43,000 nt of DNA from contig CAMDDO010000019.1 in the NCBI GenBank assembly GCA_945892755.1, positions 1 to 43,000 on the forward strand, given 5' to 3'. The translations under genes and the position numbers were made by a program. A model generated the notes under the pieces. That model saw only the letters and a program-made list of their open reading frames with translations. It did no database searches and was not told the origin of the DNA. This document shows positions 1-33,940 of this stretch, in pieces. This DNA comes from Rhizobium sp. Q54 (GTDB taxonomy: Bacteria; Pseudomonadota; Alphaproteobacteria; UBA828). Numbering within the stretch: the first letter of the stretch is position 1; each line of letters starts with the position of its first letter.

Positions 1-1
1 G

Positions 2-1250: not shown

Positions 1251-1259
1251 GCCGGCACC

Positions 1260-2132: not shown

Positions 2133-2135
2133 GCC

Positions 2136-3107
2136 ATGCGCCTCAATCTGACCGGCCCCGATGGCGCGCGCCTGCTGTGCCTGGCGGTGCTCGTCGTGCT
2201 GCCCTTCTTCGTGCCCTCGGCCTATGTTCGACATCTGATCATCGTTGCCGTGGTCTACGGCGTGGTTGCCTCCAACTGGAATTTCAGCCTCGGCTATGGC
2301 GGCATATTCAATTTCGGCCATCTCGCCTTTTTCGGGCTCGGCGCCTATGCCTCGGCAATCCTGGCGAAGACGGTCGGCATCACGCCCTGGGTGACCATCG
2401 TGCTCGCCGGCGTTGTCGCGGTCATCGCCGCGATCATCGTCAGCGTTCCCGTGCTGCGGCTGAAGGGCATCTATGTGGTGCTCGTGACCTTTGCCTTCTC
2501 TCAGCTTTGCCTACAGCTGATCATGAGCCAACAGGGCATGACAGGAGGCTCGCAAGGCTTTCCTCTGGTGCCTCAGCTCAAGCTCGGCGACTACAGTTTC
2601 GCGAGCGATGACAAGTTCGGTTACTACTTCGTGGCGCTGTTCCTGCTGGTGATCTCGACGCTTTACCTTGAGCGCCTGGTACGCTCGAATTTCGGCATCA
2701 GTGTCGTGGCGCTCCGCGACAACGAGGACTATGCGGTCAGTCGGGGCATCTCGCTGGCACGCCAGCGCCTGCTCACGCTGGTCGCCAGCGCACTGTTTAC
2801 CGGGATGGCCGGCGGGTTTTTCTCGACCTATACACGGGTCGCCTCGCCAGAGATCTTCGGCTTCGGGCCGCTTTCACTCGCGCTCTCGATGATGCTCTTG
2901 GGCGGCACAGGAAGCATCTACGGCCCGATCGTCGGCGCCTTCGTGATCACCATCGTCTCGGAATTGATGATCGATCTGGGGCCCGCGCGGTTCCTGATCA
3001 TCGCGGCGATGATCATTCTCGTCCTCTTGTTCTATCCCGGCGGCATTATCGTGGGCCTGCGCCGGGCCTATGATGAACTTCTGAAGCTGCGGCCGACGCG
3101 CGCCTGA
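2136..3107 (+). CDS. livM: Branched-chain amino acid-type ABC transporter permease (LivM-like)
   Basis: A 323-residue permease of the LivM family, partner of LivH. The hallmark LGYGGIFNFGHLAFFGLGAY lies near residues 50-70, followed by the cytoplasmic coupling-loop region VALRDNEDYAVSRGI. Length and the PGGIIVGLRRAY ending fit the family. It is the last gene of the left liv operon. The stop is only 3 bases from the stop of the convergent amidase gene, so no independent terminator separates them. Probable roles are uptake of amino acids, amides or related nitrogen compounds; the neighbouring amidase would fit an amide substrate, but that is inference. Confidence 0.93.
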   Translation: MRLNLTGPDGARLLCLAVLVVLPFFVPSAYVRHLIIVAVVYGVVASNWNFSLGYGGIFNFGHLAFFGLGAYASAILAKTVGITPWVTIVLAGVVAVIAAIIVSVPVLRLKGIYVVLVTFAFSQLCLQLIMSQQGMTGGSQGFPLVPQLKLGDYSFASDDKFGYYFVALFLLVISTLYLERLVRSNFGISVVALRDNEDYAVSRGISLARQRLLTLVASALFTGMAGGFFSTYTRVASPEIFGFGPLSLALSMMLLGGTGSIYGPIVGAFVITIVSELMIDLGPARFLIIAAMIILVLLFYPGGIIVGLRRAYDELLKLRPTRA

Positions 3108-3110
3108 TTC

Positions 3111-4565
3111 TCAGTTCGCGCTTGCGTGAACCGGTGGCAGGCGATGGCGCCACGGCGTCGCGCGTTCGATCTGCGCGGCCAGCGCGAGCAGCGTCGCCTC
3201 GTCGCTCTCGCCGCCGACGAATTGCATGCCGATCGGCAGACCGTCGCTCGACAGGTGCAGCGGTAGCGAGATCGCGGGTTGGCCGGACACATTGAACGGC
3301 GCGGTGAACGCCACGTCCGGACCGAGGCGCTCGTCGGTATAGGTGCTCGGCTCGAGCTTGTACATGTCGTAATAGCCATGCTTGCGCGGCGGGTGGCGCA
3401 TCACCGGCAAGAGGTGCACGTCGGCGACGGTCGTCTCCGCCACGATCTTGCGGCCGAGCAGACGCATCATATCGACGTCTTGGGAATGTTGGATGCCGCT
3501 GATCGCGCGGCCGTCCTGGATCTGCGCCCAAATGGCTGGCGAGACCTCGCTTTCGCGAACTTCGTGGCCGATGGCGGGCGCCATATCGGCGAAGCCCGTC
3601 GCGTTCTTGACGGCGCAGATGCGCGTGAAGGTTTTCCAGAACAAGCCGTAGTCGAGATCGATATCGCGCTCCTCGACCCGGTGCCCAAGGTCCTCGCACA
3701 ACTTGGCGGTCTTCTTGACCGCCTCGGCGACCTCCGGGTGGACCTCGAAGCCGCCCGGCGCCTTGGTCGAGAAGGCGATGCGGAGACGTGCCGGCGCCCG
3801 CTCGATGACCGAGGCATAGCGACGATGGGACGGCCGAGAGTAATAAATGTCGCCCGGCCAGCGGCCCGCGACGCCATCAAGATAGTGCGCCGTGTCGCGC
3901 ACGCTCCGGGTGACGCACAGGAAAACCGCGGCGCCGTACCAGAAGTCGGCATATTGCGGCGCGAGCGTGACCCGCCCGCGCGAGGGCTTCAGCCCGACCA
4001 GGCCGCAATGGCTCGCCGGAATGCGGATCGAGCCGCCGCCATCGCTGCCGTCGGCGAGCGGCACCAAGCGCGCCGCCACCGCCGAGGCGGCGCCGCCGCT
4101 CGATCCGCCCGGACCAAATGCCGTGTTCCAGGGATTGCTGGTTTTTCCGTAGATCGCCGGCTCGGCGGCGATGCACCAGCCAAGTTCCGGCGAATTGCTC
4201 TTGCCGACCAGCACAACGCCGAGGCGCTTGATGCGGCGGACATATTCCATGTCCTCGGTCGCCACGAAATCCTTGAAATAAGGGCAGGCGTTGGTGGTCG
4301 GCACGCCGGTCCAGAGCGTGCCGAGGTCTTTCAACAAGAACGGCACGCCCTTGAACGGGCCATCGGGCAAAGCGGGGTCCCGCGCGGTCTTGCGCGCGAT
4401 CTCGTAAGTCTTGATACAAACGGCGTTGAGTGTCGGATTGAGCGCCTCGACGCGCCGGATCGCCTCCTCGGCAAGCTCCGCCGGCGAAACCGCGCCCGCG
4501 CGGACCAGGTCGCCCAGTCCTGTCGCGTCGTTCGAATCGAAGATCGTCCCAATAGGTCCCGCCAT
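3111..4565 (-). CDS. Amidase signature family hydrolase
   Basis: A 484-residue cytoplasmic amidase signature enzyme, which hydrolyses C-N amide bonds with a Ser-cisSer-Lys triad. The triad is visible: Lys79 in PFLLKDLG, the cis-serine Ser155 in GGSSGG (153-158) and the nucleophile Ser179 in DGGGSIRIPAS. Full length for the family, so probably active. Start: ATG at 4565 with GGGAGG five bases upstream. It converges on livM and is divergent from the CoA-transferase gene. It lacks any GatB/GatC neighbour, so it is a catabolic amidase rather than the GatA transamidosome subunit. The substrate is not predictable from sequence; the liv transporter may deliver it. Confidence 0.9.
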   Translation of the reverse strand: MAGPIGTIFDSNDATGLGDLVRAGAVSPAELAEEAIRRVEALNPTLNAVCIKTYEIARKTARDPALPDGPFKGVPFLLKDLGTLWTGVPTTNACPYFKDFVATEDMEYVRRIKRLGVVLVGKSNSPELGWCIAAEPAIYGKTSNPWNTAFGPGGSSGGAASAVAARLVPLADGSDGGGSIRIPASHCGLVGLKPSRGRVTLAPQYADFWYGAAVFLCVTRSVRDTAHYLDGVAGRWPGDIYYSRPSHRRYASVIERAPARLRIAFSTKAPGGFEVHPEVAEAVKKTAKLCEDLGHRVEERDIDLDYGLFWKTFTRICAVKNATGFADMAPAIGHEVRESEVSPAIWAQIQDGRAISGIQHSQDVDMMRLLGRKIVAETTVADVHLLPVMRHPPRKHGYYDMYKLEPSTYTDERLGPDVAFTAPFNVSGQPAISLPLHLSSDGLPIGMQFVGGESDEATLLALAAQIERATPWRHRLPPVHASAN

Positions 4566-4670: not shown

Positions 4671-4760
4671 AGCTAAATCGAGGTGCGACGTTTGATGCAG
4701 CGGCCCCGCCGCTCCTCTAGATTGAGCCGGCGTTTCCCGAAACTGGCGGGCCGATCCGTG

Positions 4761-5963
4761 ATGACCGACAAACCCCTTACAGGCCTTCGCGTGCTCGATC
4801 TGGCGACCTTTGTCGCGGCACCGTTCGCGGCGAGCCTGCTCGGCGAGTTCGGCGCCGAGGTGATCAAGATCGAGCAGCCGGGTGGTGGCGACCCGTTACG
4901 CAGCTTCGGCACGCGCGTTTCGAAGGATTCGACCCTCGTCTGGAAAAGCGAGGCGCGGAACAAGAAGTCCGCCTGCCTCGATTTGCGCAAACCCGAAGGC
5001 GCCGCGCTGTTCAAGCGCCTGGTCGCGATCAGCGATGTCGTGTGCGAAAATTTCCGTCCCGGGACGTTGGAAAAATGGGGCCTCGGGTTCGATGCGCTCT
5101 CGGCGCTCAACGCCGGCCTCGTGCTGCTCCGAATTTCCGGCTATGGCCAGACGGGGCCCTACGCCGAGCGGCCCGGCTTCGCGCGCATCGCGCACGCCAT
5201 GGGGGGCCTCACCCATTTGGCCGGCATGAAGGGTGAGGCGCCGGTCACGCCGGGCTCGACCTCGCTCGCCGACTATGCCGCCGGGCTCTATGGCGCCTTC
5301 GGCGTGCTGACCGCGCTGCGCCAGCGCGACAAGAGCGGGCGCGGCCAGGTCGTCGACGTGGCGCTCTATGAGGGGATTTTTCGTTTTCTCGATGAGGTCG
5401 CGCCGGCCTTCGCGCGCAACGGCACGATCCGCGGCCGCGAAGGGCTCTACACCGTAACCGCTTGCCCGCACGGCCACTACCCGACCAGCGACGGCAAATG
5501 GGTCGCGATCGCCTGTACAAACGACCGCATGTTCGAGCGCTTCGCCGCGCTTGTCTCGGCCCATGGCGCGCCGCCGCCGGCCCATTGGTTCAAGGGCGCG
5601 AGCCGCGTGCCGGAGCGCGATGCGGTCAATGAATGGGCCGCGCGCTTCACCGCGACACTCGATCGCGACGCGTTGATCGCGGCCTGCGTCGACGGTGAGA
5701 TTCCATGCGCGTCGGTCGCCGATATCAGCGACATTTTCGCCGATCCGCACTATGCCGCGCGTGAGGTGCTTCGCCGCATCACCGATCTGAGTGACGGCCA
5801 AACCTATGTCGTGCCGAACGTGGTGCCGCGCCTCTCCGAAACGCCGGGCTCGGTCGACACGCTCGGTCCGCCGCTCAATAGCCACGCCGACTACGTGTTC
5901 AAGGAATTGCTCGGCTTGAGCGAGGATGAGATCGACAAAGCGCGCGCGGCCGGCGCGATCTAA
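4761..5963 (+). CDS. Class III CoA-transferase (CaiB/BaiF family)
   Basis: A 400-residue family III CoA-transferase, which moves CoA between an acyl-CoA and a free carboxylate through an aspartyl-CoA thioester. The N-terminal PLTGLRVLDLATFVAAPFA and GAEVIKIEQP are typical. Asp171 in SLADYAAGLYGAFG aligns with the catalytic Asp169 of formyl-CoA transferase. The start at 4761 is chosen because family similarity begins there; an upstream in-frame ATG at 4683 would add 26 Arg-rich residues that look non-coding. Its stop overlaps the stop of the convergent monooxygenase by 3 bases. It probably activates a carboxylic acid in a degradation route; partner acids are unknown. Confidence 0.9.
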   Translation: MTDKPLTGLRVLDLATFVAAPFAASLLGEFGAEVIKIEQPGGGDPLRSFGTRVSKDSTLVWKSEARNKKSACLDLRKPEGAALFKRLVAISDVVCENFRPGTLEKWGLGFDALSALNAGLVLLRISGYGQTGPYAERPGFARIAHAMGGLTHLAGMKGEAPVTPGSTSLADYAAGLYGAFGVLTALRQRDKSGRGQVVDVALYEGIFRFLDEVAPAFARNGTIRGREGLYTVTACPHGHYPTSDGKWVAIACTNDRMFERFAALVSAHGAPPPAHWFKGASRVPERDAVNEWAARFTATLDRDALIAACVDGEIPCASVADISDIFADPHYAAREVLRRITDLSDGQTYVVPNVVPRLSETPGSVDTLGPPLNSHADYVFKELLGLSEDEIDKARAAGAI

Positions 5964-7225
5964 ACTCGGCCATAATCGGACAAAGGCGAGTCAGACGGCG
6001 GCATGGAGATCGCGCGAATGACGTTCTCGGGCCGTCGGAAATACTCGCCCCGGCGCACCTCCTCGTCGGTCCTGAGACCGGTGTCGATCTGGGTTCCGAG
6101 CTGGCGCGCGCAGTGCACCAGATAGCGGCCATAGCGGCAGCGTTCGGCGTCATAGACGCTGAGGGCGCGGGCCAGGTCGCCCGGGCTGGCCTGGATCGCC
6201 TCGGCGAGCGCCACGGCATCACCGACCGCCTTGATCACGCCCATGCCCGGATGCGGCCGCGCGACGAACGCGCCATCGCCGAGCAGCGCGACCCATCCAT
6301 CCACCATGCTCGGCAGCTCGAGATCGACGATGGTCTGAAAGAACGGCTCCCGAATCAGGCGGATCACCTCCGCATAGGGCGGTGCCAGGGTCTCGCTCGC
6401 CGCCTGCTTCATTTCGGTGACAACCGCCGGATCGATCCGATCCGGCGGGATGCCGCCTTCATAGAACCTGCCGGCGCTGTCGGTCATCATGCGCTTGAGC
6501 TTTGCTTCGCTCGCCGCGCGGTACCAGACGAAATTGAAGCGGCGCTTGCCGGGGCGCGTGTCGCCGTCGAGTCCGGCGACCGGGTAGCCGACCATGTGTT
6601 CGCCGGGTGGCAGGCATACGACGAAGCGGGTGTACAAGATACGATGAGACTCAGGCGAGAAGCGGCTCTCCTCGACCGTGCCGCGCCACGCCACGTAGCC
6701 GGCGTAGCGCGGGATCGACGAGGGCCAGAACTGCGCGCGAACGCTCGATCGAATGCCGTCCGCACCGATCAGAAGGTCCGCATCGATGGCGCTGCCGTCG
6801 CTGAATAAGACGCGCACGCCCTTGTCCATTTGCTGGGCACGCTCGAAGGTCGAGCCGGCAAAATAGCGCGCGCTCGGAAACTTGCCCTTGAGGCTGCGAT
6901 AGAGGCTGCCCCAGGTCCCTTGAATTTGCGCCTTGTGGTAGCGCGCCAGAACCTGTCCGTCGCGCCCGAGCATGAGCCGCTCCTCGATCGGCACGCCAAA
7001 TCTGTCATCGACCGGAATGCCGATGCGCTCGAACGCGCGGTGCAGTTCCGGGTGCGTCGCGATGCCGGCGCCGCGCTCGGCCAGTTCAACGCCGACCCGT
7101 TCATGTACCGTCACGTCGCAGCCCGCGCGGTGCAGCATATTGCCTGCGAGCAATCCGCCAAGCGAGCCGCCGACCACCACGACGCGAAGCCGCTTTGAGG
7201 GCGGTTCGACGGCTCGCTCAGTCAT
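5960..7225 (-). CDS. FAD-dependent aromatic monooxygenase, 2,6-dihydroxypyridine 3-hydroxylase-like
   Basis: A 421-residue class A flavoprotein monooxygenase. The FAD-binding Rossmann start is VVVVGGSLGGLLAG (residues 15-28), the DG motif is GADGIRS (154-160) and the second FAD motif is GDGAFVARPHPGMGV (316-330). The stretch RPGKRRFNFVWYR (224-236) and the RPHPGMG variant resemble, from memory, 2,6-dihydroxypyridine hydroxylase of nicotine degradation rather than p-hydroxybenzoate hydroxylase. Such enzymes hydroxylate an electron-rich ring using NADH and O2. The start is 12 bases after the stop of the upstream permease, so it is probably the last gene of the transporter operon. Urate or salicylate hydroxylase-type activity remains possible. 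Confidence 0.85.
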   Translation of the reverse strand: MTERAVEPPSKRLRVVVVGGSLGGLLAGNMLHRAGCDVTVHERVGVELAERGAGIATHPELHRAFERIGIPVDDRFGVPIEERLMLGRDGQVLARYHKAQIQGTWGSLYRSLKGKFPSARYFAGSTFERAQQMDKGVRVLFSDGSAIDADLLIGADGIRSSVRAQFWPSSIPRYAGYVAWRGTVEESRFSPESHRILYTRFVVCLPPGEHMVGYPVAGLDGDTRPGKRRFNFVWYRAASEAKLKRMMTDSAGRFYEGGIPPDRIDPAVVTEMKQAASETLAPPYAEVIRLIREPFFQTIVDLELPSMVDGWVALLGDGAFVARPHPGMGVIKAVGDAVALAEAIQASPGDLARALSVYDAERCRYGRYLVHCARQLGTQIDTGLRTDEEVRRGEYFRRPENVIRAISMPPSDSPLSDYGRV

Positions 7226-7237
7226 TGCCCGTCAGGA

Positions 7238-8194
7238 TCACGCTTGGACTTTCGCCGCGCGTCCATAGGTCAGCAACATGATGATGATCACGCCGCCATA
7301 AATGATCTGTTTATAGCCCTCGGGCATCTGCAGAACAGAGAGCACACTTGAAAGCAGGGTGAGCAACAGCACACCCATGACGGTGCCCGAGTATTTGCCT
7401 TGCCCGCCCAGAATGTGCGTGCCGCCGACCACGACAGCGGCAATCGTCGGCAGCAAATAGGGATCGCCCATCGCCTGATAGGCCTGGTCGGCATAGCCGG
7501 CGAGCAGCACGCCACCAAGCGCACTGCAGAAACCGCCCCATACGAAACAGAGCATGATCACACGGCGCGTTCGCACGCCCGAGAGATAGGTCGCCGTCTC
7601 GCGATTGCCCGTGGCGTAGATGTATCGCCCAAGCGGTGTGCGCCGCAGGATGAACACCATTACGAGCGAGATCAGAATCCAGACAAAGAGGGCATTCGGG
7701 ATCGGACCGATCAAACGCCCGATCGCGATGGCGCGCATGAAGTCCGAGGCCGTGCCCTGTGGCGCGAACCCACCGGTGTAGAACACCTGCATGCCAAGCA
7801 AGACCGCATTGACGCCGAGTGTCCAGATCATCGAGGGCACACGGAGAAAGGCGACGCCGAGGCCGTTCACCAGCCCGACGAGGCACCCGAAGATGAGTGC
7901 CGCCGGCACCGAGAGCCCGGCAATCGCATTTTCGCCGCCAGGACCCGCGATCGCGGTTGACATGATGGCCGCGACCGACATGGTCCAGGGGATCGAGAGA
8001 TCGATGTGGCCGAGCAGGATCACCATCATGGCGCCCGAGGCGAGCACGCCGAAATAGGATGCGATCTGAAGCTGCTGCAGCAGATATTTGCCCGTCAGCA
8101 TTTGGGGAAACATCGTCGAGCCAATGAAGTAGATCGCCAGGATCAGGATCCCGGTGATCAGCAGCGGCCGGTCGATGCTCCGGGCGAAGTTCAT
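7238..8194 (-). CDS. Sugar-type ABC transporter permease (RbsC family), second permease
   Basis: A 318-residue inner-membrane permease of the RbsC/BPD_transp_2 family. Characteristic parts are SGAMMVILLGHIDLSIPWTM near residue 55 and the coupling loop TPLGRYIYATGNRETATYLSG near residue 185. The end is VVVGGTHILGGQGKYSGT followed by the last membrane helices. It starts 2 bases after the stop of the other permease, so the two are translated together and probably form a heterodimeric channel. The LGHIDLS motif replaces the TGGLDLS of the sister permease. The flavin monooxygenase follows after 12 bases. The family imports pentoses and hexoses but also nucleosides, autoinducers and other solutes. 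Confidence 0.9.
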   Translation of the reverse strand: MNFARSIDRPLLITGILILAIYFIGSTMFPQMLTGKYLLQQLQIASYFGVLASGAMMVILLGHIDLSIPWTMSVAAIMSTAIAGPGGENAIAGLSVPAALIFGCLVGLVNGLGVAFLRVPSMIWTLGVNAVLLGMQVFYTGGFAPQGTASDFMRAIAIGRLIGPIPNALFVWILISLVMVFILRRTPLGRYIYATGNRETATYLSGVRTRRVIMLCFVWGGFCSALGGVLLAGYADQAYQAMGDPYLLPTIAAVVVGGTHILGGQGKYSGTVMGVLLLTLLSSVLSVLQMPEGYKQIIYGGVIIIMLLTYGRAAKVQA

Positions 8195-8196
8195 GC

Positions 8197-9168
8197 CTAG
8201 CCCATGACCTCAAGGCGGTTGCGTATGCCGATCAGGCGAAGCGCGCTCGCCATGAGGGCGAAGATCAACACAGCACCCTGGAACAAAGGCTGGGCCAGCG
8301 AAGGCACACCGCTAAACAACAAGACGCTGTTGATGATGCGCAGCACATAGGCGCCATAGATCGAGCCGACCAGCCCGCCAGTGCCGCCAAACAGCGAAGT
8401 GCCGCCGATCACGACCGCGGCAATCGAGTTCAGCGTATAGGTGACGCCGCCATTGGCATCGCCGCTCAAGGTCTGGAAACCAAGGAAAAGCCCGCCGAGC
8501 GCGGCGAAGAAACCAGACCCCGTATAGGCGGCAAGGCGGGCGCGTTTGACCGGCACGCCTGACATAAAGGCGGCGATCTCGGATGAGCCGACCGCATAAA
8601 TTCCCCGGCCGATGATCGAGTTCTTGAGCGGCATCCAGACCAGCAGCACGAGCCCAATGAAAATGAACACCGGCGTTGGGATCACGCCGAAGACCGAGTA
8701 GGTGATGGCCTCGCTCAAGCCTTCATCGATCTCACCACCTGGCGCGGGACGAACGAGCAGCGCGAGGCCGGTATAAACGGCACCAGTCGCAAGCGTCGCG
8801 ATGATCGGCTGGATGCGGCCATAGACGACGATCACGCCGTTGATCAGGCCACATACGCAACCAAGCGCGATGACTGCGAGCAGACCGAGCGCGATCTGCC
8901 AGGGCGAACCGGTCAGCAGCTCGGAACCGAGCGAGTTGGTCAGCGCCATTATGGCGCCGATCGAAAGATCGAGCCCACCCGTCAAGACAGGCAGTGTCTG
9001 GCCCATCGCGATGAGCGCAAGCGCGCCGCCCTGATTGGCGGTCGCTTCAAGCGCCAGCATGTTGAAACGCGGATGGATGACGATGAAAACGACGAGAAGC
9101 ACCGCGAACAGCGCGAGCGCGATCAGCCCGCCGGAATTGTGACGCAGGCGGATGACGAGATCAGCCAT
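8197..9168 (-). CDS. Sugar-type ABC transporter permease (RbsC family), first permease
   Basis: A 323-residue permease of the RbsC family. The hallmark MGQTLPVLTGGLDLSIGAIM occurs near residue 70, the coupling loop SIIGRGIYAVGSSEIAAFMSG near residue 195, and VVIGGTSLFGGTGG near 260. The start at 9168 is preferred because its ATG overlaps the ATPase stop by eight bases, a common coupling arrangement; a possible start at 9213 would add 15 residues lying inside the ATPase gene. Transcribed after the ATPase and before the second permease. Confidence 0.9.
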   Translation of the reverse strand: MADLVIRLRHNSGGLIALALFAVLLVVFIVIHPRFNMLALEATANQGGALALIAMGQTLPVLTGGLDLSIGAIMALTNSLGSELLTGSPWQIALGLLAVIALGCVCGLINGVIVVYGRIQPIIATLATGAVYTGLALLVRPAPGGEIDEGLSEAITYSVFGVIPTPVFIFIGLVLLVWMPLKNSIIGRGIYAVGSSEIAAFMSGVPVKRARLAAYTGSGFFAALGGLFLGFQTLSGDANGGVTYTLNSIAAVVIGGTSLFGGTGGLVGSIYGAYVLRIINSVLLFSGVPSLAQPLFQGAVLIFALMASALRLIGIRNRLEVMG

Positions 9169-10720
9169 GGGCGGCGCCTGTGGTTTGGGTCGCGCGCTTG
9201 CCAAGGTCGACATTGAGCGACGCGGCGACGATGTTCTGTTCGGTGATGTCGTCGCCCACGAGGGTGCGAATGATCTCGCCGTGATAGAGGATCGAGATCC
9301 GATCGCACATGCCGATCAGCTCGTCATAGTCGGTCGAATAGAAAAGTATCGCAGCACCGTCATCGGCCAGCTTTCGCATCAGCGCGTAAATTTCCTGCTT
9401 GGTGCCGACGTCGATACCACGGGTGGGATCCATCAACAGCAACACCTTCGCCTCGGTCATCAGCCATTTGCCGATGACAACTTTCTGCTGATTGCCGCCG
9501 GAGAGCGTACGCACGGGGTCGGACGGCGCGCCGATCTTGATCCGCATGGTCTCGATCATCGCATCGACCCGCGTGCTCTCAAGCGAGCGGTTGATCACGC
9601 CTGTTTTGACGAAGCGCGACAGGCTCGCGATCGAAAGATTGTCGCGAATCGACATCGGCAGCATGAGACCTTCGGTCTTGCGATCCTCGGGGATCATCGC
9701 GATCGCGTTCTTCGGGTGTTTGGCCGTGGCGGGGCTGCGAACGGCGGCGTCGCGTCCATAGAGCTTGACCGAGCCCTTGAGACCACGCAGCACACCAAAG
9801 AGCCCAAGCAGGATTTCGCGCTGGCCCTGCCCATCGAGACCGCCAAGGCCAACGATTTCCCCCGGCCGGATCGAAAAGGAAATCCCGTTCAGCCGGTCCT
9901 CCCAGGCAAGATTGTCGACCTCGAGGGCCGGCTCGGGCAAGGCACGCGGCTTCGGCTTCGGTGGATAGATCTGCGTGATCTCGCGCCCGATCATGAGCTG
10001 GACGACCTGCTCGGGCGTCCGCTCGCCCTGACGGAAGGTCTGGATGTAGCGGCCGTTGCGAAAAACCGTGCAATGATCGGCGATCGCCTCGATCTCGGCC
10101 ATGCGGTGCGAGATGTAAAGAATGGCGGTGCCTTGATCGCGGAGCGTTCGGAGGATGGCGAAGACCTTTTCGACATCCGCCGCGGTGAGCGCCGAGGTGG
10201 CCTCATCGAGGATCAAGAGTTTGGGCGCGCGGCCTAGCGCCTTAGCGATTTCGACAAGCTGCCGGCGCGAAAGTGGCAAATCGCGCACCCGCGAGATGGG
10301 ATTGACGTCATTGCAGCCGACCCGGGCCAGCAATGATTCGGCGCGCTGGCGCTGGGCGCGTTGTGCGATGAAGCCGCGGCGTCCGGGCGGGTTGGTGATG
10401 CAGATATTGTCGGCGACGCTCAGGTCCGGCATCAGGCTGAGCTCTTGAAAGATGCACACAATGCCTGCGCGCGTGGCGTCAACCGGCGTGAAGTGGTGAA
10501 CCTCCTTGCCTTCGAGCATCATGCGACCGGTATCGGCGCGCGCGACCCCGGCCATGATCTTGATCAGCGTGCTCTTGCCCGCACCATTTTCGCCGAGGAC
10601 CGCGTGGATGCTGTGGCGCTGGCAGGCAAAGTGGACATCGTCCAGCGCGACGACGCCGCCATAATGCTTGGAGATGCCTTCCATGCTGAGGAAGGCAGGG
10701 TCAGATTGCGCGTCGCGCAT
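9161..10720 (-). CDS. Sugar-type ABC transporter ATPase with two nucleotide-binding domains (RbsA/MglA family)
   Basis: A 519-residue fused double ATPase. Domain 1 has Walker A GENGAGKST (residues 43-51), a signature-like LSRRQLVEIAKAL and Walker B LLILDEATSAL. Domain 2 has the degenerate Walker A GLDGQGQRE, the signature LSGGNQQKVVIGKWL and a Walker B ending LLLMDPTRGID, where Asp431 is followed by Pro and the usual catalytic Glu is absent. Such asymmetry is common in this family. No strong ribosome-binding site is seen before the ATG at 10720. It follows the binding-protein gene after 64 bases containing a hairpin and overlaps the first permease gene. Confidence 0.92.
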   Translation of the reverse strand: MRDAQSDPAFLSMEGISKHYGGVVALDDVHFACQRHSIHAVLGENGAGKSTLIKIMAGVARADTGRMMLEGKEVHHFTPVDATRAGIVCIFQELSLMPDLSVADNICITNPPGRRGFIAQRAQRQRAESLLARVGCNDVNPISRVRDLPLSRRQLVEIAKALGRAPKLLILDEATSALTAADVEKVFAILRTLRDQGTAILYISHRMAEIEAIADHCTVFRNGRYIQTFRQGERTPEQVVQLMIGREITQIYPPKPKPRALPEPALEVDNLAWEDRLNGISFSIRPGEIVGLGGLDGQGQREILLGLFGVLRGLKGSVKLYGRDAAVRSPATAKHPKNAIAMIPEDRKTEGLMLPMSIRDNLSIASLSRFVKTGVINRSLESTRVDAMIETMRIKIGAPSDPVRTLSGGNQQKVVIGKWLMTEAKVLLLMDPTRGIDVGTKQEIYALMRKLADDGAAILFYSTDYDELIGMCDRISILYHGEIIRTLVGDDITEQNIVAASLNVDLGKRATQTTGAAHG

Positions 10721-10736
10721 GGTTGGTGCGCAAGAT

Positions 10737-10769
10737 CGCCGCGGCTGAGGCTACACCCCAACCGCGGCG
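10737..10769 (-). other. Stem-loop between binding-protein and ATPase genes
   Basis: CGCCGCGG at 10737-10744 and CCGCGGCG at 10762-10769 form a perfect 8-bp GC stem with a 17-base loop. It lies in the 64-base gap after the binding-protein stop. No T-tract follows on the minus strand, so it is more likely an mRNA-stabilising or processing hairpin that lets the binding protein be made in excess than a full terminator. Confidence 0.5.
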
Positions 10770-10784
10770 TCACTTGCTCAGAGC

Positions 10785-11912
10785 CTAGGTGTTGTCGCTG
10801 CTCTGATTGAACAACTCGTCCGGCGTCAGCGGCTTGAAGCACGCCGGATAGCCCGTGCCGGTGTTGAAGCTGGCCGGCAGGTCCGGGAAATAATGCTCGC
10901 CAGCCTTCATATCGCTGCCGAGCACGCCCGTGCTTGGAAGCGCAACCAGCACCGGCAGCTCGTGGCCCTGCAGGAGCTTGATCGCGCCATCCATGGCGAC
11001 CGCGCTCATCGCCGGATGTTGCTCGACCGAGATGAACGGCACCTTGTTCTCGACCGCCATGCGGCGGGTGCCGTTCTCGCCGTCGAGACCCATCGGAACC
11101 ATCTCATGGCCCGCGGCCTTGAACGCGTTGATCAGGCCTTGCCCGCCGTGCTGCGACATAACGGCGTCGAACTTGGGGTGAGCCGCGAGAGCATCGGCGA
11201 CGACCTTTTGCACCGTGCCGGTATCCCAATTGCCAACCACCGTGACGATCTCAACACCGTCCTTCTCGAACACCTTGTGCATGCCGATCGAGCGGTCGCG
11301 ATCGACCGAGTTGCCGGGTAGGCCGCGCACCTCAAGCACGCGAATGCCCTTGGTCTTGCCCGCCGCTTCGAGCTGCGCCCAAACGTACTTGCCCTTGGTC
11401 TCCTCGAACTCGATCTGCTTTTGGTTGACCTGGAACACCTTGTCGGTGTCGAGGATGTTGTCGAACGGCACCAGCACGGTGCCGGCACGCTCGGCGCGCT
11501 TGATCACGGCGTCGAACGCCGTCGGGTTGACCGCGATGAACGATATGGCGTCGAAACCGGCCGCGATGAAGTTGTCGATCGCGGCGATCTGGGCGGCCAC
11601 GTCGGCGCCCGTGCTGACCACTTTGAGCTCTTTGATGTTGGCCGCGTTCTCGGGCCGCGCCGCCCAGGCCTTCAGGCTTTGAATCATCTGGATGCGCCAG
11701 TCATTGCCGGCGAAGCCATTGACCAGCGCGAGGCGATAGGGGCCTTCCTTCGCCGGATAGCTGATCATTTTCGTCGTGTCTTCCCAAGGCCGGAAGCATT
11801 CCGGAATGGGATTCGGCTTCGCGTCGGCGGCGAAAGCGGCGCTCGCCGAGATCGATATAGTCACGGCAAGCGCGGCCGCGGTAAACAGCATGTTTCGAGC
11901 CAGTCTGATCAT
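10785..11912 (-). CDS. Periplasmic substrate-binding protein of the sugar-type ABC transporter
   Basis: A 375-residue exported binding protein of the periplasmic-binding-protein type I group used by RbsB-like systems. A Sec signal peptide is clear: MIRLARN, a hydrophobic run, then SASAAFA before ADAKP. The mature protein has LALVNGFAGNDWRIQMIQSL at the start of lobe 1, DAISFIAVNPTAFD in the middle and DAVMSQHGGQGLINAFKAAG in lobe 2. The start at 11912 has GGGAG seven bases upstream. It is the first gene of the transporter operon. The extended mature N-terminus (PIPECFRPWEDTTKM) is unlike simple ribose-binding proteins and points to a different ligand, which the sequence does not reveal. Confidence 0.92.
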   Translation of the reverse strand: MIRLARNMLFTAAALAVTISISASAAFAADAKPNPIPECFRPWEDTTKMISYPAKEGPYRLALVNGFAGNDWRIQMIQSLKAWAARPENAANIKELKVVSTGADVAAQIAAIDNFIAAGFDAISFIAVNPTAFDAVIKRAERAGTVLVPFDNILDTDKVFQVNQKQIEFEETKGKYVWAQLEAAGKTKGIRVLEVRGLPGNSVDRDRSIGMHKVFEKDGVEIVTVVGNWDTGTVQKVVADALAAHPKFDAVMSQHGGQGLINAFKAAGHEMVPMGLDGENGTRRMAVENKVPFISVEQHPAMSAVAMDGAIKLLQGHELPVLVALPSTGVLGSDMKAGEHYFPDLPASFNTGTGYPACFKPLTPDELFNQSSDNT

Positions 11913-12050
11913 CTATAGTCTCCCATGTTCAACGTCGCCCCTTGCTTGGAAGGAGCAGTTCAAGTACCGGCCGACGCGCGTTTCGGTGGAGTTCTTGTTG
12001 GAGCGCCGACAAACCCGTTTTAAGGCGATGCTCCGCCCACAGGCCGAGGG

Positions 12051-12079
12051 ATTGAGACAGCAAGCCAAAATCGTGTCAA
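12051..12079 (-). promoter_or_regulatory. Putative promoter for the binding protein-ATPase-permease-monooxygenase operon
   Basis: On the minus strand a perfect TTGACA (12079-12074) is followed after 17 bases by CTCAAT (12056-12051), a weak -10. It lies in the 188-base gap between the LLM oxygenase stop and the binding-protein start and would give a leader of about 130 bases. The rest of this gap shows nothing recognisable. Confidence 0.4.
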
Positions 12080-12100
12080 GCAAGCCCGTGGCTGCCAAAC

Positions 12101-13252
12101 TCAATTGCGCAATCCCGCCTGGCGCATCAGCGGCATGACTTTCTCGCCGAAATACTTCATCTCTTCATAGTAGTCGAGCCATGACAGAATGAAGCCCTCG
12201 ACCCCGGTTTCGGCGATCGCGAGCATTTTCTCGACCACTTGGTCGGGCGTGCCGACCAGGGGATAGCCGCCCCAACCCGCAATGAAGCGCTCGCCCATGG
12301 CGCGGATTTCGTCTTGGTTGCTACCATAGGAATAATTCTCGCCCTGCATCAAATCGATGATCGTGCGGGTCGCGCCCCAATCGCCTTCGGCGACGATGCG
12401 GTCATAGAGCGCTTTCGCTTCTTTCTCGGTGTCGCGACAGCAGACCAGGCCATAGCTCATCACGCCGCATTGTCGGCCATGGCTCGCCGCGCGCCGATGA
12501 ATGTCCTTGGCCATGTCGGCGCCTTTTTCGAGCGACGGAATCGAGACGAAATTGAAATCGGCATGGCGTGCCGAAAAATCACGCCCGGCCGGCGAGCTGC
12601 CGGCATTGATGATCACCGGATGCGGCTGTTGAATTGGCTTTGGCGAGAGCCAGCCTTGGTTGATCGTGAAGTACTCGCCCTTGTGACTGAACTCATCCTC
12701 GGTCCACAGCCGTTTCATGCAGGTCAGCCATTCATCGGCCACCTCATAGCGCGTGTCGTGGCCGAGCTGCTTGACGCCGAACATCTCCATTTCGGGCTTG
12801 AACCAGCCGCACACGACATTGAGGCCGAAGCGGCCATTCGAAATGTGATCGATTGTCGCGGCCTGCTTGGCGGCGAAAATGGGGTGCACGGTCGGCACGT
12901 GCGAGGTGGCGAACACCATGATGTTTTCCGTGTGGCAGGCCATCGCGGTCGCCCAGGTGAACACCTCCATATTGGTGCCGTTGAATTTGGTCGAGCCGCC
13001 AAAGTGCTTCCAGCGCCCGACCGGCACCAGAAGCTCGAAGCCAAGCCTATCCGCCAGCTTGCTGATCTTGACGCTGTGCTCGTAACTCGGCTCGAAGGTC
13101 GTTTCGGCATGGGTGATGGTGCAGCCATTGCTACAATTCTGGCCGAACACGCCGAGCTTGAAACGATTGGCGTTATAGACCGGCAAACGATCTCGCCGCC
13201 ATTGTTTCAGATCGTCGGGATGTTTCGGTTCCCGCGCCAATTCAACCACCAT
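12101..13252 (-). CDS. LLM class flavin-dependent monooxygenase (RutA/SsuD-like)
   Basis: A 383-residue luciferase-like TIM-barrel monooxygenase using reduced FMN supplied by a reductase. Typical blocks are KLADRLGFELLVPVGRWKH, the ATSHVPTVHPIFAAKQAATID segment, NGRFGLNVVCGWFKPE and INAGSSPAGRDFSARHADF. From memory these match the branch with RutA pyrimidine oxygenase and dimethylsulfone-type monooxygenases. The ATG at 13252 is chosen because GGTGGAG lies six bases upstream; a GTG at 13267 would add five residues. It begins 28 bases after the molybdenum hydroxylase stop, so the two are co-transcribed. Likely role: oxidative cleavage of a heterocycle or C-S/C-N bond. No flavin reductase gene is visible nearby. 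Confidence 0.88.
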   Translation of the reverse strand: MVVELAREPKHPDDLKQWRRDRLPVYNANRFKLGVFGQNCSNGCTITHAETTFEPSYEHSVKISKLADRLGFELLVPVGRWKHFGGSTKFNGTNMEVFTWATAMACHTENIMVFATSHVPTVHPIFAAKQAATIDHISNGRFGLNVVCGWFKPEMEMFGVKQLGHDTRYEVADEWLTCMKRLWTEDEFSHKGEYFTINQGWLSPKPIQQPHPVIINAGSSPAGRDFSARHADFNFVSIPSLEKGADMAKDIHRRAASHGRQCGVMSYGLVCCRDTEKEAKALYDRIVAEGDWGATRTIIDLMQGENYSYGSNQDEIRAMGERFIAGWGGYPLVGTPDQVVEKMLAIAETGVEGFILSWLDYYEEMKYFGEKVMPLMRQAGLRN

Positions 13253-13280
13253 GCCACGCTCCACCACTTGATCGTTGAGG

Positions 13281-15623
13281 CTAAGTTTGTTTCTTCGCGT
13301 CGCTCATGGCGCGCCAAACTCGTTCCGGGCTCGCCGGCATATCGAAATTTCTGATCCCGAGCGGCGCGAGCGCGTCGTTCACCGCGTTCATCACGGCGGG
13401 CAGCGCGCCGACCGTGCCGGCCTCGCCCGCGCCTTTGACACCCAAGGGATTGTTCGGCGTCGGAACCTCGTTCGCAGCGACGGAGAAGAAAGGCAGATCG
13501 TCCGCGCGCGGCATGGCGTAGTCCATGAACGTGCCGGAGAGCAATTGGCCCGAGCCGGAATCATAGACAATGCGCTCGCACAGCGCTTGGCCGACGCCCT
13601 GCGCCACGCCGCCGTGAATCTGGCCATCGAGCAACAATGGATTGACCACGCGGCCGACATCATCGACCACGGCATAGCGCGTTAGCGCCAACGCACCGGT
13701 CTCGGGATCGATTTCGACCTCGCAGACATGACAGCCATTGGGGAAGGTGGCATTGGGCGGTGTGATGATGGCGCTGGCCGATAGACCTAGCTCGACGCCG
13801 GGTGGCAAGGCTCGTGGCGAGAATGCGGTTCGCGCCACTTCATCGAGGCCGACCGAGCGATCGGTGCCGATCACCGTGAAGCGCCCGTCGCGAAACGCCA
13901 AATCACCCGCCGCCGCTTCCAGGAGATGCGCGGCGATAAGCTTGCCCTTGGCGATGATTGTTTCAGCGGCGCGCAACACCGCCGCGCCGCCGACACCGAC
14001 CGAGCGCGAGCCGAACGTGCCCTTGCCGTGATAAACTTGGTCCGTATCGCCATAAACGATACGCACGCGCTCGGGCGCGAGGTCAAAGATGTGGGCGGCG
14101 AGCTGGCGAAACACGGTCTCGTGCCCTTGGCCATGCGAATGCGTGCCGAGCAAGAAGGTCGCCTCGCCCGAGGCGTCGAAACGAATTTCCGCCATTTCCT
14201 CGAATGGCGCGTCTTGCGGTCCGCCGGCGACCTCGATCGCATAGGCGATGCCGAAGCCGAAAAGTTTGCCGCGCCGCTTGGCATCGTCGCGTCGTCCTGG
14301 CACGCCGCTCCAATCGGCAAGCTCCAGCGCCATCGTCATTGTTTCGGCGAAGTCGCCAGAGTCATAACGATGGAGAAAGCCGGTATCGAACGGCATGGCC
14401 ATCGGCGGGATCATATTGCGCTGACGCAGCCCGATAGGATCGAGGCCCAGCTCGCGCGCGGCTTCATCGATGATTCGTTCGATGCAATAGGTCGCCTCGG
14501 GTCGCCCGGCACCGCGATAGGCGGAGATGGCATGCGTATTAGTGAAAACGCCGGTGACCTCGACATCGTAGCTACCGATCACATAGGGGCCCGCAAGCCC
14601 GCCCAGATTATTGCTGGCGGTCCAAACGCCGAAGGAATCGAGATAGGCGCCCATGTTCGCGACGGTGCGTACGCGCAAGCCGAGGAATTTTCCGTGCTCA
14701 TCAAGCGCGAGCGCGACCGTCGATAAATTATCGCGCGAATGGTGATCAGCCAGAAAGGCTTCGGCGCGCCCGCTCTGCCAGCGTACGGCTCGGCCGGTTC
14801 GCTTCGCCGCCCAAAGCACCAAGGCAAGTTCCGGGTAGGCCGAGACCTTGAGGCCAAACGCGCCGCCGATATCGGGCGAGACAACGCGCAATCGGCTCGG
14901 GCTCATGTGAAAGATGCTTCGTGCCAATTCATCGCGCAACAAGTGCGGGGCCTGCACGCCGGCATGGAGCGTGTAGCGCTCATCACGCGGGTCATAGATG
15001 CCAATGGCGCTCCGTGTTTCCATTGGGTTCGCGATCACGCGAGAGATATCGAAGCGCCGTTCGATCACACGTGCCGCGCGGGCGAAGGCCGCTTCGGCCG
15101 CCGCCGCATTGCCGGCCCGATGCACGAAGCAGACATTGCCGGGTTCTTCATCCCACACGGACGGCTGGCTCTCTTGCGTCGCGATGACGGCGTCGATGAC
15201 GGCGGGTAGGGGGTCGATCTCGAGCCCGATCAAATCCAGCGCATCCTCGGCCTCGTGCTCACTCTCGGCGATCACCAGGGCGACCGGCTCGCCAATATGG
15301 CGGACACGATCAAGCGCCAGCACCCGATAGGGCGGTACGAAATTCGGCGTGCCGTCGGCCCTCCGGCGCGCAAGAAACGACGTGAAGCAGCCCAGGCCGT
15401 CAGCCGCGGCGTCCGCCCCGGTCAGAACATCGATCACGCCCGGTGCGGCGCGGGCGGCGGTGACGTCGAGGCGCCTGATGTGCCCCGCGGCGTGGGCGGC
15501 TCGTAGAATCTTGGCGTGCACGAGACCGGGCAGCGCGATATCGCCAACATAGCGGCCGCGGCCGCGAACGAACCGATCGTCTTCAAACCGCCTGACGCTC
15601 TGGCCGAGATCGAATTCCCGCAT
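13281..15623 (-). CDS. Xanthine dehydrogenase family molybdopterin-binding large subunit (CoxL-like, form II type)
   Basis: A 780-residue molybdenum hydroxylase large subunit. The N-terminal a/b hammerhead domain (RRFEDDRFVRGRGRYVGDI) is followed by two molybdopterin-binding parts with GGAFGLK at 253-259. The active loop reads AYRGAGR (368-374) instead of the AYRCSFR of true form I CO dehydrogenase. The catalytic Glu734 lies in GAGEAG. Such enzymes hydroxylate N-heterocycles or aldehydes with water as oxygen source. The FAD (CoxM) and 2Fe-2S (CoxS) subunits usually needed are absent from the window. It is the first gene of the minus-strand block and divergent from the 2-oxoglutarate oxygenase across a 145-base gap in which I see no strong promoter. 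Confidence 0.9.
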   Translation of the reverse strand: MREFDLGQSVRRFEDDRFVRGRGRYVGDIALPGLVHAKILRAAHAAGHIRRLDVTAARAAPGVIDVLTGADAAADGLGCFTSFLARRRADGTPNFVPPYRVLALDRVRHIGEPVALVIAESEHEAEDALDLIGLEIDPLPAVIDAVIATQESQPSVWDEEPGNVCFVHRAGNAAAAEAAFARAARVIERRFDISRVIANPMETRSAIGIYDPRDERYTLHAGVQAPHLLRDELARSIFHMSPSRLRVVSPDIGGAFGLKVSAYPELALVLWAAKRTGRAVRWQSGRAEAFLADHHSRDNLSTVALALDEHGKFLGLRVRTVANMGAYLDSFGVWTASNNLGGLAGPYVIGSYDVEVTGVFTNTHAISAYRGAGRPEATYCIERIIDEAARELGLDPIGLRQRNMIPPMAMPFDTGFLHRYDSGDFAETMTMALELADWSGVPGRRDDAKRRGKLFGFGIAYAIEVAGGPQDAPFEEMAEIRFDASGEATFLLGTHSHGQGHETVFRQLAAHIFDLAPERVRIVYGDTDQVYHGKGTFGSRSVGVGGAAVLRAAETIIAKGKLIAAHLLEAAAGDLAFRDGRFTVIGTDRSVGLDEVARTAFSPRALPPGVELGLSASAIITPPNATFPNGCHVCEVEIDPETGALALTRYAVVDDVGRVVNPLLLDGQIHGGVAQGVGQALCERIVYDSGSGQLLSGTFMDYAMPRADDLPFFSVAANEVPTPNNPLGVKGAGEAGTVGALPAVMNAVNDALAPLGIRNFDMPASPERVWRAMSDAKKQT

Positions 15624-15768: not shown

Positions 15769-16779
15769 ATGGTTTCGGCAATTCCGGTAATCGATATTGC
15801 GCCGTTCACGCAGGGCGGCGCGGCGGGCCATCAGGCTGTCGCCCAAGCGGTCGACCGCGCCTGTACCGATCTTGGTTTCCTCATCATCTCGGGGCACGGC
15901 GTGGCCGAGACGCTCGTCGATGACATGCGGGCCGTCTCACGCCAATTCTTTGATTTGCCGGTCGATGAAAAAATGCGCTTGCGCATGCCGCCCGATCGTT
16001 ATCGCGGTTATATCGCGTTCGGCCATGAGGCGCTGGCCAATAGTCTGGATCAGGCTTCGCCGCCCGACCTCAAGGAGTCGTTCTCGATCGGGCCGTCCGA
16101 TTTCCCCGATGATGCCTATCATCGCGCGGCGAAGCCGGGAAACTTCTTCGCGACCAATCTCTGGCCGAACAGCCCGGCAAACATGCGGGCGATTTGGGAA
16201 AAATATTTTCGCGAGATGGAGCGCGTCTCGACGCTGTTGATGCGTATCTTCGCTGTTGGGCTCGGCATAGACGAGCACTTTTTCGACGACAAGATCGACC
16301 GCCACATTACGAATTTCAGCGTAATCCATTATCCCGAACAGCCCGGCGAGCCCTTGCCCGGTCAGCTCCGCGCCGGCGCGCATACTGATTATGGCAGCCT
16401 GACCATCGTGAAACCCGATGCGGCGCCGGGCGGCCTTCAGGTGCTCGGCAAGGATGGCGGCTGGATCGACGTGCCGGTCATCGCGGGCACGTTTGTCGTA
16501 AATCTCGGCGACCTAATGGCCGAGTGGACCAATGATCGCTGGGTCTCGACGCTCCATCGCGTGGTCAACCCGCCGCGCGACAAAGCGCGCGGCAGTCGGC
16601 GCCTATCGACCACCTTCTTTCACCAGCCGAATTATGACGCTGTCATCGAGTCTCTGCCGACCTGCACCGATGCCGCCCGTCCGCCGCGTTATGGGCGGAC
16701 CACCTCGGGCGAGCACGTCTGGATGAAAGTCAACAAGCACCGCCAGCCCGAGCTCGACAAGATCAAACGAATCGGATAG
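15769..16779 (+). CDS. 2-oxoglutarate/Fe(II)-dependent oxygenase, isopenicillin N synthase-like
   Basis: A 336-residue non-haem iron oxygenase with the N-terminal DIOX_N region (IPVIDIAPF, DLGFLIISGHGV) and the C-terminal double-stranded beta helix. The iron triad is visible: His205 and Asp207 in GAHTDYGSLTIV and His263 in LHRVVNP. Arg278 and Ser280 form the RxS motif that binds the 2-oxoglutarate carboxylate (or substrate in IPNS). Full length, so probably active. It couples 2-oxoglutarate decarboxylation to hydroxylation, desaturation or ring closure of an unknown substrate. It is divergent from the molybdenum hydroxylase and 118 bases upstream of the second liv operon, with which it could be co-expressed. 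Confidence 0.9.
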   Translation: MVSAIPVIDIAPFTQGGAAGHQAVAQAVDRACTDLGFLIISGHGVAETLVDDMRAVSRQFFDLPVDEKMRLRMPPDRYRGYIAFGHEALANSLDQASPPDLKESFSIGPSDFPDDAYHRAAKPGNFFATNLWPNSPANMRAIWEKYFREMERVSTLLMRIFAVGLGIDEHFFDDKIDRHITNFSVIHYPEQPGEPLPGQLRAGAHTDYGSLTIVKPDAAPGGLQVLGKDGGWIDVPVIAGTFVVNLGDLMAEWTNDRWVSTLHRVVNPPRDKARGSRRLSTTFFHQPNYDAVIESLPTCTDAARPPRYGRTTSGEHVWMKVNKHRQPELDKIKRIG

Positions 16780-16826
16780 CGGGATCGGCAACCGCGCCGC
16801 GTTGGACAAATACGCTTGCCACAAAG

Positions 16827-16841
16827 GTCTAGAATCTAGAC
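16827..16841. promoter_or_regulatory. Perfect 15-bp palindrome upstream of the second liv operon
   Basis: GTCTAGA and TCTAGAC are perfect inverted repeats around a single A. The dyad lies in the 118-base gap between the 2-oxoglutarate oxygenase stop and the livG start and contains TAGAAT (16830-16835), a five-of-six match to a -10 hexamer, although no good -35 lies at standard distance. It looks like an operator for a dimeric regulator; no candidate regulator gene is adjacent. Confidence 0.45.
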
Positions 16842-16897
16842 GATGGATCGGGAAAGACAGCGTGCTGCCGATTGGCCGCCGCTCGTGGGGGGGGGTC

Positions 16898-17680
16898 ATG
16901 GCACGGCTCGATGTGGAGCGTGTGTCCAAGCATTTCGGCGGCGTCTATGCGCTTCGCGATGTCTCGTTGCATTGCGAGTCCGGCGAAATCGTCGGCTTGA
17001 TCGGGCCAAATGGCGCGGGCAAGACCACGCTGCTCAATGTGGTCTCCGCGGCGCTTCCGGTCGACCAGGGCTCGGTCACGCTCGATGGCAAGCGGCTCGA
17101 TGGCACGGGGCCGCGCAATTGCGCGCTGATGGGAATCGGCCGCACGTTTCAGAACATCCGTCTGTTTGGCCGGCTCACGGTGCGACAGAACATTGATGTT
17201 GCATACTCCACCGCGCTGGCTCATCGAAGGGCCAGACTCAAAGATACCACGGTCGACGGTCTGCTCGAGTTCATGAGCCTGTCGGCGGCACAACATCGTC
17301 GCGCGCGCGAATTGCCCTATGGCCAACAGCGCCGGCTCGAGATTGCCCGTGCGCTCGCGCTCGCGCCGGATTTTCTATTGCTCGACGAACCGGCGGCCGG
17401 CATGAACGAGGCCGAATCTGAACGCTTGATCGGCTCGATCCGCGCGGTGCGCGATCGCAGCGGCTGCGGCATCATCGTGATCGATCACGATCTGCGCTTC
17501 ATCATGACGGTTTGCGAGCGCATCCACGTCATGCACATGGGCGAATTGATCGCGCATGGTCCGCCTGAAATTGTTCAAAAAGATCCGCGCGTCATCGAGG
17601 TATATATCGGCGGGCGCGGGCGCGCGAAAGATAGAACGCGCAAAGAAGCATCGAATGCGGAGGCTTTGGCGGCTCACTGA
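16898..17680 (+). CDS. livG: Branched-chain amino acid-type ABC transporter ATP-binding protein (LivG-like)
   Basis: A 260-residue LivG ATPase: Walker A GPNGAGKTT, the ABC signature region LPYGQQRRLEIARALALAP and Walker B FLLLDEPAAGM. The C-terminal part (EVYIGG) is LivG-like, with an Arg/Lys-rich tail. The start at 16898 follows a long G-run acting as ribosome-binding site, and homology starts at MARLDVERVSKHFGG; the upstream in-frame extension to 16802 lacks similarity and overlaps the palindrome. First gene of the second liv operon, followed after 28 bases by the binding-protein gene. Confidence 0.92.
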   Translation: MARLDVERVSKHFGGVYALRDVSLHCESGEIVGLIGPNGAGKTTLLNVVSAALPVDQGSVTLDGKRLDGTGPRNCALMGIGRTFQNIRLFGRLTVRQNIDVAYSTALAHRRARLKDTTVDGLLEFMSLSAAQHRRARELPYGQQRRLEIARALALAPDFLLLDEPAAGMNEAESERLIGSIRAVRDRSGCGIIVIDHDLRFIMTVCERIHVMHMGELIAHGPPEIVQKDPRVIEVYIGGRGRAKDRTRKEASNAEALAAH

Positions 17681-17708
17681 TCGATCGATAAACAAGGGAG
17701 ACGGAACA

Positions 17709-18908: not shown

Positions 18909-18915
18909 CGCGCCC

Positions 18916-19650: not shown

Positions 19651-19659
19651 AGGTCCGGT

Positions 19660-32096: not shown

Positions 32097-32119
32097 GGCA
32101 CGTCTCCTTTTTTGAGCTT

Positions 32120-33772
<1,653 letters not shown>

Positions 33773-33788
33773 CTGAGCGGCTCCTTTT

Positions 33789-33801
33789 GTTGCGCCGCAA
33801 C
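33789..33801. promoter_or_regulatory. Candidate operator dyad in the aceB leader
   Basis: GTTGCGCCGCAAC is a perfect 6-bp inverted repeat around one base, just upstream of the aceB ribosome-binding site. A related 13-mer (10 of 13 identical) lies at 33918-33930 before the regulator gene. Suggested binding site of the divergent ScfR-type regulator; inference only. Confidence 0.4.
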
Positions 33802-33906
33802 GTGCCGAGATCATCGGCGTTTATTGCGGAGCTGTCCATAAGTCATTGATATAAAAAAGGATCACATGTACGCGTGGAAAATTTATCACCAGTCAATTTG
33901 TAAATC

Positions 33907-33935: not shown

Positions 33936-33940
33936 GCCTC

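Follow-up and report, generated by a model that had tools for sequence, protein, structure and literature searches.

In molybdenum hydroxylases, electrons leave through the enzyme's own iron-sulfur (S) and FAD (M) subunits. When genome surveys meet a CoxL-like gene for the large subunit (L), they count it as a functional molybdenum hydroxylase or CO dehydrogenase; copies that stand alone are put down to gaps in the assembly. The roles of O2-pocket residues have been described for the flavoenzyme RutA (PMC7662398), and RutA-type (flavin-N5) group C monooxygenases share the dioxygen motif F/L-T/S-NxV-A-F/L/Y (PMC8234197). The hxn nicotinate regulon of Aspergillus nidulans combines a molybdenum hydroxylase, class A flavoenzymes, the thymine-7-hydroxylase-like 2-oxoglutarate (2OG) oxygenase HxnY and an amidase (PMC9304392). 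The stretch analysed here (the window) comprises 43,000 nucleotides of Rhizobium sp. Q54 (contig CAMDDO010000019.1, positions 1 to 43,000) and encodes a molybdenum hydroxylase large (Mo-pterin) subunit (MoL), an FMN-dependent luciferase-like monooxygenase (LLM), a CUT2 (RbsABC-type) importer and a class A flavoprotein monooxygenase (FMO). A preliminary description of this DNA had read these genes as one uptake and oxidation cluster for a ring compound. Comparison with relatives suggests that the locus is probably, though by no means certainly, a mosaic at the species level, assembled from three catabolic modules rather than conserved as a single pathway of seven genes.

Seven intact open reading frames (ORFs) were confirmed at 5960-15623, all on the minus strand. 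From 5′ to 3′ they encode MoL (13281-15623), LLM (12101-13267), a CUT2/RbsB-type periplasmic binding protein (SBP; 10785-11912), a double ATPase of the RbsA/AraG type (9161-10720), CUT2 permease A (8197-9213), CUT2 permease B (permB; 7238-8194) and FMO (5960-7225), and the Pfam domains of the seven proteins score far above cut-off. MoL and LLM are 13 bp apart, LLM and SBP 188 bp, and SBP and the ATPase 64 bp; the ATPase and permease genes overlap, 2 bp separate the two permeases and 12 bp separate permB from FMO. The ORF map thus agrees with the first account of closely packed, co-directional genes, and the three flanking genes, for an amidase, a CoA-transferase and a 2OG-Fe(II) oxygenase, are real too.

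LLM was searched for at E 1e-100 over 95 genomes, which included the source genome (G000) and a sister species of the same genus (G002). In G002, the only well-recovered genome of that genus, MoL-LLM, the transporter and FMO sit on three contigs, with neighbours that differ from those in the window. On contig C108 the MoL-LLM pair is followed by an SDR gene; on C11 a chalcone-isomerase-like gene and an amidase lie ahead of the transporter (85-92% identical); and on C119 FMO (74% identical) adjoins a binding protein of the oligopeptide type (SBP_bac_5). In G002 the 177 bases that precede FMO (L094 9924-10100) do not encode permB. They resemble what we take to be the tail of an IS630-type transposase (the library search gave no match), which could have caused a rearrangement. 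Across the readable flanks of the 13 relatives with LLM, orthologues of the window transporter were found beside no LLM gene. The idea of a single seven-gene unit, and the conserved co-occurrence of all seven genes by which it was to be checked, are thus not borne out, as the parts lie scattered in the sister species. Conservation is also not confined to the transporter genes, because MoL-LLM and a set of FMO, 2OG oxygenase and amidase are kept elsewhere as separate modules. Packed co-directional genes should not be taken as a pathway without such a sister-species check.

The LLM gene is present in 14 of the 95 genomes (the source genome and 13 relatives), all of one family. MoL directly adjoins it, with small gaps between the genes, in seven (G000, G002, G005, G008, G010, G016 and G018), which span genera g1, g4 and g6. 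Within the family, the adjacency of MoL and LLM is therefore conserved across three genera. In six readable genomes of genus g5 (G006, G009, G011, G015, G017 and G019) MoL is not beside LLM; G020, also of g5, has its contig cut at LLM and was left out of the adjacency count. With 14 large subunits and 18 matches to LLM in the 3.27 Mb of the source genome, a single MoL-LLM contact could be due to chance, but its conservation in three genera could not.

MoL carries the Pfam domains Ald_Xan_dh_C, MoCoBD_1 and MoCoBD_2, which place it in the molybdenum hydroxylase (xanthine oxidase) family. Its active-site loop, AYRGAGR, is of the form II or general molybdenum hydroxylase type; the Mo-pterin motifs are kept, as is the catalytic Glu (KGAGEAG) in 21/21 aligned sequences. 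All NCBIfam equivalog models score it below cut-off, the nearest being glyceraldehyde dehydrogenase alpha. Form I CO dehydrogenase (CoxMSL), with its motif (A/S)YRCS(F/L)R (PMC13240472), was ruled out by the AYRGAGR loop and the absence of coxM and coxS. The molybdenum hydroxylase of the preliminary description stands as a large subunit, but the enzyme is incomplete, lacking S and M. Across the 43-kb window no ORF has the [2Fe-2S]-subunit motif, although the search does pick up S subunits elsewhere in the source genome, from two other sets; the motif is likewise absent from six MoL-LLM loci, and tblastn found neither S nor M within 1.5 kb.

This arrangement extends well beyond one locus. The source genome encodes 14 large subunits (MoCoBD_2) and 10 S subunits (Fer2_2), every one of the latter near a large subunit, giving 10 complete sets and four partnerless large subunits that include MoL. 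One partnered sister enzyme lies on contig C8, with S near 4705 and L at 4976-7330. Large subunits outnumber S subunits in 19 of 20 genomes of the same family, and the numbers are equal in the remaining one. Among the 30 closest large-subunit loci (21 genomes; a few flanks shortened by contig ends), 27 have neither S nor M in their flanks and three (L139, L152 and L158) have both. On a tree of 28 sequences the partnerless label changes twice, against 9.7 times when shuffled, a result that near-copies aid and that indicates clustering, not a single origin. By these comparisons MoL belongs to a stable, clustered subfamily of partnerless large subunits.

A lone large subunit might instead be a decayed or assembly-stripped leftover, its S and M genes lost or missed and its pairing with LLM non-functional; a survey of form I enzymes ascribed partnerless CoxL in metagenome-assembled genomes to incomplete recovery (PMC13240472). 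For MoL we regard this as very improbable. In many genomes the partners are absent although the locus is internal to its contig and bordered by other genes on both sides, and partnerless copies occur on complete plasmid records of cultured Salipiger, Celeribacter and Azospirillum. The ORFs are full-length, none of the Mo-pterin motifs is missing and the catalytic Glu is kept; on the tree, the partnerless copies group strongly together. With somewhat less than even confidence, we propose that Alphaproteobacteria may possess a functional molybdenum hydroxylase subfamily without its own [2Fe-2S]/FAD pair, many different large subunits being served by one shared S/M module, or electrons going to an unconventional acceptor, in which at least two branches would be tied to a fixed redox partner gene, LLM in one and a TcuA-type flavoprotein in another.

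Other partnerless large subunits have neighbours of their own. A second one in the source genome (L065, contig C10; 2890-4362 and 4455-6791) lies divergent to a flavoprotein gene whose product scores above the TcuA (PRK08274) cut-off, and this pair is kept in G002, G006, G009, G013 and G019 at 62-82% identity. Two more, at L066 (contig C66; 5448-8693) and L067 (contig C6; 6202-9420), each have a PhyH-type oxygenase gene directly after them. On a Neorhizobium plasmid (L113; 6998-9298) a partnerless large subunit, 49% identical to that of the window, lies near a UbiD-type decarboxylase and a UbiX-type prenyltransferase, neighbours that suggest aromatic acids.

The best NCBIfam and PDB matches of LLM are SfnG and RutA. 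It scores 221.8 bits against SfnG (TIGR04021; cut-off 382.95) and 187.3 bits against RutA (TIGR03612; cut-off 498.3), reaching neither cut-off. Equivalents of RutA Thr105, Asn134, Val136 and Phe224 are kept, and RutA Leu65 is replaced by Val; among 21 aligned LLM sequences all have the Thr and Asn, and 20 have the Val equivalent. In terms of the dioxygen motif, the positions mapped show T, NxV and F, with V and not L/F at the first position. What had been called a RutA-type LLM is thus RutA/SfnG-like, with the O2-pocket Thr and Asn-x-Val, and falls below the RutA cut-off. Membership of the pyrimidine (Rut) pathway was rejected because the score misses the TIGR03612 cut-off and no rut gene is represented in the scanned proteins. 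Riboflavin catabolism, in which RcaE is an LLM as well, was also rejected: the known lumichrome operon, found by searching for P450, amidases and catechol dioxygenase (PMC12746152), is unlike the window locus. On plasmids of Peribacillus (L163) and Variovorax (L063), LLM relatives lie beside a flavin reductase and a LeuCD-type dehydratase, the latter locus adding an isochorismatase-like hydrolase, a PEP-mutase-family protein and ribBA; these are candidate degradation pathways.

The importer is complete, as first described, with a Peripla_BP_4 binding protein, a double ATPase and two BPD_transp_2 permeases, all recognised by Pfam, which places it in the CUT2/RbsABC class. The ribose equivalog cut-offs are missed (RbsB, 43.7 vs 337; RbsA, 408 vs 745; RbsC, 141 and 148 vs 398). 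The 188-bp gap between LLM and SBP contains a 15-nt element, CTTGCTGTCTCAATC (12050-12064, minus strand), 137 nt 5′ of the SBP start codon. Despite differing upstream genes, it is identical in sequence and spacing in G002. No inverted repeat was found in the gap, and a promoter and terminator scan gave numbers close to shuffled expectation (3 vs 2.1 and 13 vs 9.0). Since the sister-species transporter has this gap element upstream as well, MoL-LLM is probably transcribed separately from transporter-FMO.

Relatives of SBP at E 1e-80 occur in nine of 385 genomes of the class. In 4/4 genomes of genus g44 (loci L111, L126, L127 and L128) they accompany LacI, a gluconokinase of the GntK type (155 bits, cut-off 114) and a molybdenum hydroxylase with a full M-S-L set, an arrangement that resembles a molybdenum-dependent route of sugar oxidation. 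On rhizobial and other plasmids the importer relatives lie with the threonate genes otnK, otnC, ltnD and otnI, with an SMP-30 lactonase gene and Ldh, or with an aldo/keto reductase. Given the conserved 15-mer, the importer most likely has a control region of its own; its ligand, judged from neighbouring genes only, is most likely a sugar or sugar acid. An N-heterocycle, the ligand first envisaged, fits poorly with relatives that sit among sugar-acid and gluconokinase genes.

These neighbours raise the prospect that the whole block is a sugar or sugar-acid pathway, the importer taking up an aldose or aldonate, MoL acting as an aldehyde or aldose dehydrogenase, and the flavoenzymes being helpers or unrelated neighbours. 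The g44 and Rhizobium threonate loci would fit this, as would the proximity of MoL to the glyceraldehyde dehydrogenase alpha model, albeit below its cut-off. We nevertheless find it distinctly unlikely. No sugar kinase, aldolase or LacI/GntR regulator was found among the window proteins scanned, the g44 molybdenum enzyme is only 26% identical to MoL and belongs to another subfamily, and the conserved partner of MoL is LLM, for which we know of no sugar role.

FMO passes the cut-off for PRK07236 (NF005566; 447.3 bits, cut-off 333), and its best PDB match is 2VOU, 2,6-dihydroxypyridine hydroxylase (E 3e-42, distant similarity only), in keeping with its original assignment as a flavoenzyme of that likeness. 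Nicotine-pathway genes were not recognised near FMO in any relative. In genus g6, genes for FMO (55-57% identity), 2OG oxygenase (60-62%) and amidase (51-53%) lie next to one another, all three at L104 and L105 and FMO-amidase at L103 and L106; a MetE-like gene, MarR, PhzF and an aminotransferase are also present. FMO, 2OG oxygenase and amidase thus form a second conserved neighbourhood, recurring in a second genus. In the window the amidase (signature family; 3111-4565, minus strand) and the thymine-7-hydroxylase-related 2OG oxygenase (15769-16779, plus strand, divergent from MoL) flank the block on either side. The type III CoA-transferase (4683-5963, plus strand) is convergent with FMO, their ends overlapping by 4 bases, and did not turn up around FMO or MoL-LLM in relatives above 31% identity. 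The suggestion that the 2OG oxygenase and amidase belong with the block gains backing from the g6 neighbourhoods.

Several observations weigh against a mosaic. In g44 the importer adjoins a molybdenum hydroxylase, a different and complete one. In Rhizobium tropici and Agrobacterium, non-orthologous CUT2 importers adjoin LLMs of 47% identity, with the binding protein directly after LLM, and in G009 another non-orthologous CUT2 importer is ~3.5 kb from LLM, with a hydroquinone dioxygenase subunit also near. FMO is one gene from LLM in G011, the intervening gene being a CmcJ/NvfI-family oxidoreductase. G002 is a draft of ~400 contigs, and the region beyond its permB is outside view. The Rhizobium, Agrobacterium and G009 cases suggest that LLM and this importer class go together oftener than a random mosaic would give. 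Because CUT2 systems lie near LLMs in Rhizobium, Agrobacterium and G009, the class is not foreign to LLM chemistry. On plasmids of Agrobacterium and Rhizobium (L062/L164, L161 and L162), a flavin reductase, a carboxymuconolactone decarboxylase, LLM and an RbsB-type binding protein occur together, with CUT2 ATPase and permeases in two of the three loci and ribB or ribBA in L164 and L161.

The Rhizobium tropici and Agrobacterium loci also speak for the alternative that the block is one dedicated operon for the uptake and complete oxidation of an N-heteroaromatic (or its riboside), with RbsABC as its specific importer. Tight packing on a common strand would fit, as would a RutA-related LLM with O2-pocket residues kept, an FMO nearest 2,6-dihydroxypyridine hydroxylase and a 2OG oxygenase related to thymine-7-hydroxylase. 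NCBIfam provides a precedent for heterocycle cargo in a CUT2-like 'putative B6 ABC transporter', a model that the window importer matches far below cut-off. On the other hand, the sister species keeps the parts apart, importer relatives lie beside sugar-acid genes, MoL is without S and M, genus g5 retains LLM without MoL, and no flavin reductase, ring-opening dioxygenase or regulator adjoins the block among the window proteins scanned. We consider a dedicated operon unlikely, and its N-heterocycle reading partly supported at best; the mosaic of three modules remains the preferred interpretation.

Ring chemistry fits the enzymes themselves, because LLM is RutA/SfnG-like, FMO is near 2,6-dihydroxypyridine hydroxylase and the 2OG oxygenase is near thymine-7-hydroxylase. 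From sequence, oxidation of a ring compound is accordingly plausible for the MoL-LLM and FMO modules, as the preliminary description held. In a putative scheme, MoL would hydroxylate a substrate carbon, in an aromatic or heteroaromatic compound or else an aldehyde, through Mo-pterin and the conserved Glu, its electrons passing to some other acceptor or to the S and M subunits of a sister enzyme whose genes lie elsewhere. LLM, supplied with FMNH2 by a distant reductase, would form a flavin-N5 peroxide and cleave an activated C-N or C-C(=O) bond. FMO may hydroxylate the ring, the 2OG oxygenase may oxidise a side group and the amidase may free ammonia. The placement of importer and FMO downstream of MoL-LLM in this species may co-regulate uptake with oxidation.

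Elsewhere in the window, branched-chain-amino-acid-type ABC transporter sets lie on either side of the block (1-3107 and 16802-21650), the second followed by a class III aminotransferase gene and, farther along, a PhyH-type gene. An ordinary glyoxylate-shunt cluster at 30786-35371 comprises isocitrate lyase, malate synthase and an adjoining ScfR-type regulator.

Set against known systems, the window resembles the hxn regulon by analogy only, in its enzyme classes. The organism and gene order differ, hxn has no LLM, and counterparts of HxnW and HxnM were not identified in the window. FMO falls within the subfamily of 2,6-dihydroxypyridine 3-hydroxylase (PRK07236), but this subfamily is broad. 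Compared with RutA and SfnG systems, no rutB-F and no flavin reductase were found among the window proteins scanned. The importer shares all domains and the order SBP-ATPase-permease-permease with CUT2 (RbsABC) systems, but reaches no sugar equivalog model. In the loci of Rhizobium tropici pRtrCIAT899a and an Agrobacterium salinitolerans plasmid, LLM (47% identical) is followed by an RbsB-type protein, with a CUT2 ATPase and two permeases near. These loci add flavin reductase and carboxymuconolactone decarboxylase family genes, and ribB in Agrobacterium; they have no MoL or FMO among the annotated features of the flanks read, and their transporter proteins are only 24-34% identical to those of the window.

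MoL shares its three Pfam domains, AYRGAGR loop, Mo-pterin motifs and catalytic Glu with form II CoxL, quinoline 2-oxidoreductase and 6-hydroxypseudooxynicotine dehydrogenase; it differs in having no adjoining S and M (coxS and coxM) genes, and no CO oxidation is claimed for it. In the literature we found no description of partnerless CoxL or of clusters of LLM with molybdenum hydroxylase genes, and the conserved core of the locus, a partnerless MoL with an LLM oxygenase, would be a new form of a known enzyme kind. Lone large subunits here make up a stable, clustered subfamily, in relatives that are also rich in LLM oxygenases. If they work, the textbook rule for the exit of electrons from molybdenum hydroxylases gains a natural exception or a sharing scheme.

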